Assembly (NCBI GenBank): GCA_020845495.1
Contig: JADLFM010000135.1
Coordinates: 1 to 29,194, forward strand
Direction of reading: 5' to 3'
DNA from: Chloroflexota bacterium
GTDB lineage: Bacteria > Chloroflexota > UBA6077 > JACCZL01
DNA: 29,194 nucleotides
The notes below the pieces were generated by a model, which made no database searches, was not told the origin of the DNA, and saw only the letters and a list, made by a program, of their open reading frames with translations. This document shows positions 195 through 6,819 of the stretch, piece by piece (within the stretch, counting starts at the first letter, position 1; each line of letters begins with the position of its first letter). The translations under genes were made by a program, and so were the position numbers.

Positions 195-454
195 AACGCG
201 ATGACGGGGAGCAGTACGGCGGCTACGTCGCTCAGAGAACCGGGGGTTGGTGCGAACCCGGTGCGACACGCAGTCGGAACTCGCCCCTGAGCGGCCAAGG
301 CGAACGGCCGGCGCCCAGCAATGGCGTGCCGACGCGCAGTAGCCGAGGACGGAGTGGCGCGCGAGAGAGCGCTATGAGTGGATGCGCCAGACGGCGGCAT
401 CAACCAGGGTGGTACCACGAGGAATTCCTCGTCCCTGTGGGGCGGGGATTTTTT
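195..454 (+). promoter_or_regulatory. T-box leader, leucine specifier (Stem I plus first antiterminator/terminator)
   Basis: A tRNA-sensing leader controlling the branched-chain operon. Stem I opens with a typical AGCAGTA-type element (about 211-217), continues with a distal-loop signature at 235-262, and closes with GAA-CTC-GCCCCTGAGC at 277-292. By the usual layout the specifier codon is CTC (280-282), which reads tRNA-Leu. The T-box sequence AGGGTGGTACCACG lies at 406-419. In the antiterminator fold, AGGG pairs with CCCT, the TGGTACC bulge (410-416) would bind the uncharged tRNA acceptor end, and ACGAGG/CCTCGT forms helix A2. The competing terminator is listed separately. Uncharged tRNA-Leu should favour read-through into ilvB. 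The motifs are seen directly; Leu specificity is inferred from the specifier position. Confidence 0.9.
426..454 (+). terminator. first T-box terminator
   Basis: A 10-bp stem (426-435 with 439-448, including one T-G wobble near the loop) has a 3-base loop and is followed by six T (449-454). Its 5' arm overlaps the 3' half of the antiterminator, so the two folds exclude each other, as expected in a class I T-box. Confidence 0.85.
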
Positions 455-484
455 ATTGCCCCGTCTCGCGAGACGGCGGACGGT

Positions 485-599
485 GTACCACGCTGGTGCT
501 CGGCCCACGCTCGGGCCGAGGCCGATCGTGGCACGTCAAGCCGGGTGGTACCGCGAGTGGCCCTCGTCCCAGGCAGGTGATGAGGGCCATGTGTTTTGT
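485..599 (+). promoter_or_regulatory. second T-box antiterminator/terminator module without its own Stem I
   Basis: After the first terminator comes an 8-bp perfect hairpin (499-506 with 513-520), placed like a Stem III, and then a second T-box sequence CGGGTGGTACCGCG at 542-555. It can fold as a full antiterminator: GGG (543-545) with CCC (568-570), the TGGTACC bulge (546-552), and GCGAG with CTCGT (553-557 with 563-567). No Stem I signature or specifier loop is visible in the 85 bases between the first terminator and this T-box. This looks like a partial duplication giving a second decision point in series. Confidence 0.75.
558..599 (+). terminator. second T-box terminator
   Basis: An 11-bp stem (558-568 with 579-589, one G-T wobble) is followed by the T-rich run TGTGTTTTGT (590-599). 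The 5' arm overlaps the 3' side of the second antiterminator, so the folds compete. The T-tract is weaker than that of the first terminator. The ilvB start lies about 105 bases downstream. Confidence 0.65.
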
Positions 600-3217: not shown

Positions 3218-4216
3218 TTGGCAAAGGTCTTTTACGAGTCGGACGCCGATCTCGACGTCCTCAAGAACAAGAAGATCGCGGTCATCGGGTACGGCAGTCA
3301 GGGGCACGCCCACGCGCTGAACCTGAAAGAGTCCGGCCTGAACGTGAGGGTCGGTCTGTACGAAGGCTCGAAGTCGGCGGACACGGCGCGGGCCGCGGGG
3401 CTCGATGTCTCCACGGTCGACAAGGCGTCGGCGTGGGCCGACATCATCATGATCCTCACGCCCGACGAGACGCAGCACGCCGTCTTCGAGAAGGAGATCA
3501 GACCGAACCTGAAGGACGGCGACACCGTCATGGTGGCGCACGGCTTCAACCTGCTCTACGGCCAGATCGTGCCGCCGAGCAACGTCGACGTGGGCATGAT
3601 CGCCCCGAAGAGCCCGGGCCACCTCGTTCGCGATCAGTACGTCGCTGGGGCCGGCGTGCCGGCGCTCGCGGCGGTGTACCAGGACGCGACCGGCAACGCG
3701 ATGCGCACGGTGCTCGCGTACGGCAAGGGCATCGGCTCGGCGCGGGCTGGCATTCTCGAGACCACGATCAAGGACGAGACCGAGACCGACAACTTCGGCG
3801 AGCAGGCGGTGCTGTGCGGCGGTGTCAGCGCGCTGGTCACGACGGCCTTCGAGACGCTGGTAGAGGCCGGCTACGCGCCGGAACTGGCGTACTTCGAATG
3901 CTTGCACGAGCTCAAGCTGATCGTCGACCTGTTCTACCGGGGCGGCCTCAGCCTGATGCGTTACTCGGTCAGCAACACCGCTGAGTTCGGCGACTACTAC
4001 GCCGGCCCGCGCGTGATCGACGAGCACGTCCGCGAGAGCATGCGCCAGCTTCTGCGCGACATCCAGGATGGGACGTTCGCGAACACCTGGATTCTGGAGA
4101 ACGTCGCAGGGGCGCCACGCCTGAAGGCGATGCGCGCGAAGGGCGCCGAGCACCAGATCGAGAAGGTCGGCGCCGAGCTTCGCGCGATGATGCCCTTCAT
4201 CCAGAAGCAGAGGTAA
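3218..4216 (+). CDS. ilvC: ketol-acid reductoisomerase (class I)
   Basis: Converts acetolactate or acetohydroxybutyrate to the dihydroxy acids with NAD(P)H and Mg2+. The 332 residues fit the short class I form. The Rossmann motif [10 protein letters not shown] is at residues 24-33, and the following loop YEGSKS (about 48-53) suggests NADPH preference. The Mg-binding segment [11 protein letters not shown] lies near 185-195, and [16 protein letters not shown] is near 228-243. The start is TTG at 3218, supported by AGAGGA at 3205-3210 and by the conserved N-terminus [12 protein letters not shown]. It follows ilvN after 220 bases and shares the operon direction. Dihydroxy-acid dehydratase (ilvD) is not in the window. 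Confidence 0.97.
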
Positions 4217-4407: not shown

Positions 4408-5595
4408 GTGGAAAAGGTCCTGATCTTCGACACGACACTACGCGATGGCGAGCAGTCGCCCGGTTTCTCGATGACGTCCGAGCAGAAGCTCGAGTTCGCG
4501 CATCAGCTCGCGCGCCTGAACGTGGACGTGATCGAGGCAGGCTTCCCGGCCGCCTCTCCGGACGACTTCGCGGCGGTCCAGCAGATTGCCCGTGAGGTCA
4601 AGGGGCGCATCATCACCGGGCTGGCACGGGCTGTTCCGGGTGACATCGACATCCTCTGGGAAGCGGTGAAGGTCGCTGAGAACCCCCGCATTCATACCTT
4701 CATCTCGACGTCTGACATTCATCTCCAGAAGCAGTTCCGGCTGTCCCGCCAGGAGGCCAAAGAGCGAGCCGTCGCGATGGTCGCGCGGGCCAAGTCGTAC
4801 TGCTCAGACGTCGAGTTCTCGCCGATGGACGCGACCCGCTCGGATTGGGACTATCTCTACGAGGTGATCGAGGCGGTCATCGACGCCGGCGCGACGACGA
4901 TCAACATCGCCGACACCTGCGGCTACATCATGCCGGACGAGTTCGGCGAGATCATCGCCGGGGTCTGGGGCAAGGTCCGCAACGTCGACAAAGCGACGAT
5001 CTCGGTTCACTGCCACGACGATCTAGGCATGGCCGTCGCCAACTCGCTGGCCGCCGTCCGGGCCGGCGCGCGGCAGGTCGAGGGCTGCATCAACGGCATC
5101 GGCGAGCGGGCCGGCAACGCCTCGATCGAAGAGGTCGTGATGGCGCTCAACGTCCGCAAGGATTACTGGGGCCGTGTCTACACCCAGATCGACACGACCC
5201 AGTTGTACCCGGCCAGCGAACTGCTGTCTCAATTCACGGGGCAGGGGCCGCAGCCGAACAAGGCGATCATCGGCCGCAACGCCTTCGCCCATGAGTCCGG
5301 CATCCATCAGGACGGTGTCCTGAAGGACAAGACGACCTACGAGATCATGAAGCCAATGGACGTCGGCCGGGCCGAGAGCAGGCTGGTGATGGGCAAGCAC
5401 TCCGGACGGCATGCGCTACGGGTGGAACTGGCGCGGATCGGCTATCCACTCGGCACCTACGACCTGCTCGATGCGTTCACGCGGTTCAAGGTCGTCGCGG
5501 ATCACAAGAAGGAAGTCTTCGAGGACGACCTGCACGCGATCATGCGCGAGATGCAGGAGGCGGCGCCGGTCGGAGCCGGCGCGACCCAGCCCTGA
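4408..5595 (+). CDS. leuA: 2-isopropylmalate synthase, short form lacking the regulatory domain
   Basis: First committed enzyme of leucine synthesis: acetyl-CoA plus 2-oxoisovalerate gives 2-isopropylmalate. The DRE-TIM metallolyase barrel is complete, with DTTLRDGEQ (residues 8-16), the metal-binding HCHD motif (about 200), and HESGIHQDG (about 294-302) of the following subdomain. The protein ends after 395 residues, whereas typical LeuA is about 510 residues with a C-terminal leucine-binding dimer domain; that domain is absent, and no other frame after 5595 continues it. A homocitrate or citramalate synthase is an alternative, but the leuB neighbour and Leu T-box favour LeuA. The start is GTG at 4408 after AAGGAGAGG (4396-4404). 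Confidence 0.9.
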
Positions 5596-5706: not shown

Positions 5707-6819
5707 ATGCCGAAGAAGACGTACAAGATCGTCGTCGTGCCGGGCGACGGGATCGGGCCGGAGGTCGTGGCCGAGGGCGTAAAAGTGCTGCGCGCCCTCG
5801 AACAGCGGTTCGGACACCGTTTCGACATGCAGGAGCACACCATCGGTGGGGCCGCCATCGACGCCTTCGGCACACCGCTCCAGCCGGAGACGCTCGCCGC
5901 GGCGAAGCGCGCCGATGCCGTGCTGCTCGGCGCGGTCGGCGGGCCGAAGTGGGACGACCCAAAGGCGGAGGTCCGGCCGGAGCAGGCGGTGCTCGCGCTG
6001 CGGAAGAAACTCGGGCTGTACGCCAATCTCCGGCCGGTCAAGACGCTCCCGGCGCTGGTCGACAATTCGACGTTCAAGCCGGACGTCATCCGAGGCGTTG
6101 ACTTGATGTTCGTTCGCGAACTGACCGGTGGGACGTACTTCGCGAAGCCGAAGAAGATCTGGGAGACCGCGACCGGCCTGCGGGCAGTCGATACGACCTT
6201 TTACACCGAGCAGGAGATCGAGCGAGCGGTCCGTACGGCCTTCGAGCTAGCGCGCGGCCGACGCAAGAAGGTCACCTCGGTGGACAAGGCGAACGTCATG
6301 GCGACCTCGCGGCTCTGGCGGATCGTCGCCGAGCGGGTCGCGGGGGACTACCCGGACGTCGAATTCCATCACATGCTAGCCGACGCCTGCGCGATGCACC
6401 TGACGCGCCGCCCGACCGATTTCGATGTGATCGTCGCAGACAACCTGTTCGGTGATCTCTTGACCGACCTTGCGGCGATGCTCGGCGGCTCGCTCGGGAT
6501 GCTGCCCTCGGCGAGCCTCGGGGCCGGTAAGTCGAGCCTGTTCGAGCCGATCCACGGGAGCGCGCCGGACATCGCGGGCAAGGGGCTGGCGAATCCCCTG
6601 GCGACGATCCTGAGCGTGGCGATGCTCCTCCGCTACGGTTTACACCTGGAAGTGGAGGCGCGCGCCGTCGAAGCGGCGGTGGCGCGGGCGCTCGCCGAAG
6701 GGCTGCGGACGCCGGACACGGCGCGCACCGGCGAGAAGGTGCTGCTCTGCTCGGAGATGGGCGACTGGATCGCCACATCCATCGCCGAAGCCCGCTCCGA
6801 GATCGCCGTGGCCGTCTGA
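5707..6819 (+). CDS. leuB: 3-isopropylmalate dehydrogenase
   Basis: NAD-dependent oxidative decarboxylation of 3-isopropylmalate to 2-oxoisocaproate. The 370-residue protein has PGDGIGPEV (12-20), substrate-binding arginines around [15 protein letters not shown] (about 99-113), and the C-terminal stretch [25 protein letters not shown] (about 280-305) that binds NAD. The ATG at 5707 is preceded by AGGAGC. It lies 111 bases after leuA; that gap holds a short GAGCGCC/GGCGCTC stem. leuC and leuD, needed between LeuA and LeuB, are not present here. Confidence 0.96.

Follow-up and report, generated by a model that had tools for sequence, protein, structure and literature searches.

T-box leaders with "duplicated terminator-antiterminator elements" were reportedly described by Vitreschak et al. 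in RNA in 2008. Partially tandem T-boxes, in which a single Stem I with its specifier is followed by two antiterminator/terminator modules, form a class in a review, which terms their mode of action unknown (PMC7583486). Here, we describe a leader with the same layout in contig JADLFM010000135.1 of a Chloroflexota bacterium; the stretch analyzed, 29,194 nucleotides (nt) in full, is called the window. The leader is flanked by a promoter-like site (positions 143 to 172) and the ATG of ilvB (position 704), and all features given below are on the forward strand. Judged from its sequence, it carries one leucine (Leu)-specific Stem I and two copies of the expression part, each with a predicted UGGU-bulge antiterminator and a competing hairpin; the second copy is conserved in relatives, and the pairing of its antiterminator has been kept. 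We lean toward the reading that this partially tandem T-box controls the ilv-leu operon and that the charge of a single tRNA-Leu would be read twice in series. An earlier note, made from the letters of the window alone, had described the two modules and pointed to partial T-box duplications reported in comparative surveys.

Fully tandem T-boxes, represented here by the Paenibacillus ilvB leaders L045, L069, and L072, likewise have repeated gates in one leader. Their core motifs, however, are 323 to 355 nt apart, a spacing at which each unit could have its own Stem I, whereas module 2 of the window lies 136 nt after module 1. Three T-box core motifs are found upstream of ilvB in L069 (332 and 332 nt apart) and in L072 (354 and 355 nt apart), and these are possibly complete triple T-boxes. 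Tandem riboswitches in general share the expectation of a sharper response from serial gates, but the systems described in passages of PMC9481103 and PMC12452182 have one aptamer per gate or several per platform, whereas the window has one sensor and two platforms. Among partially tandem T-boxes, the group of the window appears to be set apart by its occurrence in Chloroflexota, its Leu specificity, its position before ilvB, ilvC, or ilvD, and a frequently weak second U-run. In a literature search that had most subscription papers, including the 2008 survey, outside its scope, we found no account of how a second module lacking Stem I works.

One Stem I precedes two antiterminator modules

The Rfam T-box model (RF00230) matched positions 192 to 439, from Stem I to antiterminator 1, over its whole length (model positions 1 to 219 of 219) with 80.9 bits and an E value of 7.4e-18. 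As this is below the curated gathering score of 93, the whole window is without a match at that score, and the T-box is detected under an E-value threshold only. In the RF00230 alignment, the specifier is CTC (Leu; positions 280 to 282) in the GAA-CTC-G of Stem I (GAA-CTC spans 277 to 282), which suits the downstream ilv-leu genes. The alignment also places Stem III of module 1 at approximately 378 to 401 and antiterminator 1 at 407 to 435, with its bulge TGGTACC at 410 to 416. Terminator 1 (positions 426 to 454) consists of a hairpin at 426 to 448 (−16.4 kcal/mol) and the run TTTTTT (T-score, 4.76), so that the UGGN-bulge antiterminator and competing terminator of a T-box are both present at 407 to 454. 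Compared with 200 shuffles, the folding of module 1 was moderately stable (z = −1.83 and 8/200 as stable for positions 400 to 462; z = −1.46 and 16/200 for 430 to 460; z = −1.09 and 29/200 for 403 to 442).

The second module opens with a predicted hairpin where a Stem III would lie (479 to 537), which is the best local hairpin by folding energy (−32.9 kcal/mol) and is followed by the linker AAGCC. Antiterminator 2 (GGGTGGTACCGCGAG...CTCGTCCC; 543 to 570) again has the bulge TGGTACC, at 546 to 552. A terminator-like hairpin (hairpin 2; 558 to 589; −23.2 kcal/mol) includes the 3' strand of antiterminator 2, and an interrupted U-run, TGTGTTTTGTC, follows at 590 to 600. The leader thus holds a second antiterminator with its competing hairpin at 543 to 589, as expected of a partially tandem T-box. 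The core motif GGGTGGTACCNCGNG has two mismatch-free occurrences in the 29 kb; when as many as two mismatches were allowed, there were 5 matches against 1.36 expected, and 5 were reached in 1 of 100 shuffles. Folding was more stable than in nearly all shuffles for positions 462 to 610 (z = −3.18; 0/200 as stable), 540 to 610 (z = −2.70; 3/200), and 555 to 600, the region of hairpin 2 (z = −4.55; 0/200).

A complete Stem I per unit, the hallmark of fully tandem T-boxes, was not found: RF00230 gave no second match at an E value of ≤5 in positions 1 to 760, and a search for two short motifs detected no Stem I between the modules in any of 17 double leaders (the window and the relatives described below). 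The earlier note was right on the single Leu Stem I, on both bulges, on the coordinates of the modules, and on a second module with a Stem III-like hairpin and neither Stem I nor specifier. Its mention of two complete terminators holds for terminator 1, which was the sole entry in a terminator scan. The second one is unlisted there, the loop of hairpin 2 being over the limit of the scan, and its interrupted U-run has a T-score of 2.40 versus 4.76 after terminator 1. Hairpin 2 does not cover the ribosome-binding site, because its end at 589 is 114 nt upstream of the ATG; by position, the leader is not a translational T-box.

The promoter-like site is of the sigma-70 type (TTGACA/TAGACT; 10/12 matches, 0.1 expected) and is the probable start of the leader. 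As it is the only such site in positions 100 to 760, both modules are probably in one shared leader.

The second module is retained in Chloroflexota relatives

Scanning a genome collection with the ilvB of the window yielded at least 80 loci. The best two among the matches listed, L001 (76% identity) and L002 (69%), are both two-module, with spacings of 155 and 121 nt, and direct reading revealed similar TTGACA...TAGACT strings in their upstream regions. In the other 78 listed loci, some of which have little upstream sequence, the core motif was single, absent, or present in copies more than 300 nt apart; the exception is L003, where the second match sits within ilvB itself. L001 is labeled Chloroflexi, and the phylum was hence taken as Chloroflexota; L002 is labeled Proteobacteria yet grouped in the class of L001. 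This class comprises 29 genomes (ilvB was found in 26), and the window was placed in it by 76 to 78% ilvB identity to three of its genomes.

Within the class, 13 genomes have a two-module leader before ilvB or ilvD (G001, G002, G058, G067, G091, G099, G107, G123, G131, G139, G155, G187, and G210), 7 have a single module (G008, G040, G115, G147, G163, G202, and G226; locus L100 of G147 was scored by motif only), and 9 fall outside both groups. No T-box module was found with a relaxed motif within 1.5 kb of ilvB in G021, G083, and G218; no ilvB was found at the cut-off in G031, G171, and G179; and the leaders of G049, G075, and G234 are cut by the contig end. Modules whose bulge deviates strongly may have escaped these counts. 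The double leader of G123 precedes ilvD (gene named by eye). Those of G131 and G139 were recognized by eye; there, the bulge of module 1 deviates (TGGTAAC in L119 of G131 and TGGTTGC in L113 of G139) while module 2 retains TGGTACC. G002 and G091 each have a further, more distant copy of ilvB, preceded by one T-box. The two ilvB copies of G099 (L097 and L121) each follow a double Leu T-box, with spacings of 156 and 188 nt. Two single Leu T-boxes, L111 (G115) and L112 (G202), have the bulges TGGA and TGGC instead of TGGT, so that the fourth bulge base would be unable to pair with an A discriminator.

Outside this class, 2 of the 41 genomes of a second class of the phylum matched (G301 before ilvC and G230 before ilvB). 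The phylum sample gave exact matches in 13 of 400 genomes over two spacing ranges, leaving out G166. The gapped-pattern match in that genome (L087) was rejected as a scaffolding artifact, since its first copy runs into NN in repeats. The plain 12-base motif is prone to chance matches (3 in the backward control of G001 and 12 in that of G002, versus 3 and 3 forward/reverse), whereas the gapped two-module patterns gave zero control matches in the rows scanned. All 17 double leaders, including the window, contain the specifier string GAACTC.

In an ilvB tree of 30 rows, the window forms a clade with G001, G067, and the two copies of G099, and all five rows are two-module. Together with L001 and L002, this answers the concern of the earlier note that the second module might be absent from close relatives. 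Across the tree, the two-module state has been gained or lost repeatedly, as 7 changes are needed, 6 of them forced by well-supported branches. The GGCCCTCGTCCC wording, common by eye to the second modules of the window clade, L104, and L115, suggests an old module followed by losses.

The pairing of antiterminator 2 is conserved

We aligned 16 leaders with 15 distinct sequences (the window, 13 loci of the class, L088, and L089). All 120 cells of antiterminator 2 in the distinct sequences hold standard pairs, with both-side changes at 3 of 8 pairs, and slid control structures had at most 65.8% of cells paired. The pairing percentage, the number of both-side-changed cells, and the covariation score were not reached in any of 500 shuffles. 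The 3' strand of antiterminator 2 is not part of the search motif, and hairpin 2 includes this strand in all 16 folded leaders. Local folding of module 2 in the 16 leaders gave a best hairpin that overlaps terminator 1 in L105, L109, L110, L113, and L115 and is weak in L107 and L119; a Stem III-like hairpin of module 2 is claimed for the window and not for the leaders in general.

Two-module leaders also occur in Bacillota

The phylum of Paenibacillus and Heliobacteriaceae was taken as Bacillota. In a sample of this phylum, the two-module spacing pattern was found in 24 of 299 genomes, at 28 loci (L125 to L152; pattern matches). As in the window, two T-box cores lie close together, at a distance of 86 to 133 nt, and in the loci that were printed, a terminator-like hairpin follows the first core. 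The string GAAGTTC (TTC, phenylalanine-like) is present in 22 of the 28, instead of CTC, and good U-runs follow both modules, unlike in the window. The downstream genes, named by eye, are DAHP synthase-like (several), phenylacetate-CoA ligase-like, symporter-like, and others. In many of these double loci, inspection by eye shows each Stem III region preceded by a string of the CCCGTACC or CCCGTATCC type, which suggests that the duplicated unit extends further back. A short-gap pattern was found in none of four genomes of named loci (a Paenibacillus, a Heliobacteriaceae metagenome-assembled genome [MAG], and two Bacillota MAGs), and a further draw from the phylum gave no additional two-module locus.

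The window is thus a further case of an already described T-box type, given that duplicated elements were reportedly known in 2008 and that the pattern is also present in Bacillota. The present analysis adds the Leu/Chloroflexota series, the evidence for retention of the second module, and the weak second U-run.

A single tRNA may be checked twice

In the reading toward which we lean, Stem I would capture tRNA-Leu(GAG). With charged tRNA, terminator 1 would form, and transcripts that leak through would meet hairpin 2, leading to tighter shut-off; such serial shut-off by two gates, already raised in the earlier note, is plausible from the layout. If uncharged, the tRNA would first stabilize antiterminator 1 with its acceptor end. 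After passage of the polymerase, module 1 may refold to the terminator hairpin, by then harmless, and the same tethered tRNA would re-dock on antiterminator 2. We propose only tentatively that one tethered tRNA is handed over from antiterminator 1 to antiterminator 2 in this way, its charge being proofread twice by a single sensor. Module 2 probably needs a tRNA held by Stem I and can scarcely attract one of its own, because no tRNA binding by an antiterminator stem-loop in isolation was observed in PMC5951919. In about 10% of traces in PMC6197855, the NCCA end briefly lost its contact with the T-box although the tRNA stayed bound, something that the hand-over would require. If the hand-over is true, the leader would be a riboswitch with serial checkpoints, in which one aptamer serves two expression platforms.

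Several observations weigh against this reading. The second binding step of glyQS was found to be near-irreversible (fully bound for at least 24 s, corresponding to more than 1,000 nt of elongation; PMC6197855), so a hand-over during the transcription of roughly 136 nt is unexpected without a trigger. The hand-over therefore demands that a near-irreversible first docking be undone by the refolding of module 1 behind the polymerase. Module 2 is dispensable, since seven genomes of the class make do with one T-box. The second U-run is poor or absent in 3 of 16 leaders (L095, L104, and L115) and weak in the window. Antiterminator 2 alone (543 to 571) is not more stable than shuffles (z = 0.55; 138/200 as stable). 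Two of the five covariation measures were ordinary (both-side pairs, 41/500 shuffles; pair types, 221/500), and the covariation statistics ignore the kinship of the leaders. The constancy of the 5' strand and bulge is partly built in, as these lie largely within the search motif.

The hand-over problem would be eliminated by a base-pair relay, in which the tRNA event at module 1 sets both gates and a second docking is unnecessary. Antiterminator 1 would free the 3' arm of terminator 1, and this arm would mask hairpin 2 by pairing with its 5' arm. In the window, pairing between the two arms is feasible at −17.3 kcal/mol (hairpin 2, −23.3; terminator 1, −17.7), but such cross-pairing is expected simply from the likeness of the modules. 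Pairs from the same genome were barely better than swapped pairs in the 16 Chloroflexota leaders (permutation P = 0.052, kinship ignored) and not better in Bacillota (27 of 28 loci scored; P = 0.30), leaving coevolution of the cross-module pairing unsupported. As a relay also leaves the UGGU bulge of module 2 without a reason, we consider it unlikely.

Module 2 could also be a redundant duplicate of little effect that is being lost. The single T-boxes of the seven genomes are in line with this, as are the U-runs: in the 16 Chloroflexota leaders, the mean T-score was 4.59 for the first and 3.18 for the second (Wilcoxon P = 0.004; this includes rough second values of 0.36 in L095 and 0.00 in L115, where hairpin 2 is over-extended). 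Direct reading of L095 and L115 showed that the bases 3' of the main hairpins are likewise U-poor, and L095 is the sister row of the window on the ilvB tree. In Bacillota, the means were 4.81 and 4.38 for the 28 loci (27 scored for the second; P = 0.002, a small difference). The weaker second U-run is thus general across both groups and marked in Chloroflexota. A decaying copy is, however, hard to reconcile with the full antiterminator 2 pairing across divergent leaders or with the retention of module 2 in all five rows of the window clade. Furthermore, in L113 and L119 the deviating bulge is that of module 1. We therefore find redundancy quite unlikely.

A third option is that module 2 is gated by tRNA but does not terminate in this clade, with hairpin 2 affecting pausing, RNA processing, or stability instead. 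It would account for the strong hairpin of the window, L095, L104, and L115, where the U-run is interrupted or poor. Other Chloroflexota second copies nevertheless have T-scores of 2.55 to 4.85, the Bacillota mean given above is high, and hairpin 2 leaves the ribosome-binding site uncovered at its distance from the ATG, making this option improbable. In another conceivable gate, antiterminator 2 is stabilized by a second uncharged tRNA that ends in ACCA, whatever its identity, and the operon would need a shortage of leucine together with a pool of uncharged tRNAs in general. Such a gate would fit a module with a UGGU bulge and no specifier but seems very improbable to us.

For the twofold reading of one tRNA, the glyQS kinetics sharpen the question to how a second gate opens while the sole tRNA is locked on the first. 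The loci assembled here, which comprise 17 Chloroflexota leaders of the Leu type (counting the window) and 28 Bacillota pattern matches, offer natural leaders with two gates, with one gate, or with a second gate followed by a poor U-run, and the Chloroflexota doubles share the same specifier.

Operon genes and additional observations

The leader precedes ilvB (704 to 2470; acetolactate synthase large subunit; Pfam PF02775, PF00205, and PF02776), ilvN (2467 to 2997; small subunit; ALS_ss_C and ACT_5), and ilvC (3218 to 4216; ketol-acid reductoisomerase; KARI_N and KARI_C). These are followed by a leuA-like gene (4408 to 5595; HMGL-like and HCS_D2) and a leuB-like gene (5707 to 6819; Iso_dh, the isocitrate/isopropylmalate dehydrogenase family), both of which were named from operon context.

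Matches to BcKCsr2, NsiR1, and anti-hemB over terminator 1 of the window, and to BcKCsr2, MIR6426, and IRES_Bip in L001/L002, were under the family cut-offs and taken as chance. T-box scores were between 73.9 and 92.4 bits, and thus below 93, in six of nine sources (positions 192 to 439 of the window, L001, L002, L088, L091, and L094), whereas the T-boxes of L087, L089, and L092 exceeded the gathering score. GC-rich T-boxes of such scores may escape routine annotation. Finally, a long near-perfect hairpin lies between module 2 and the ilvB start in L002 (positions 2429 to 2492).
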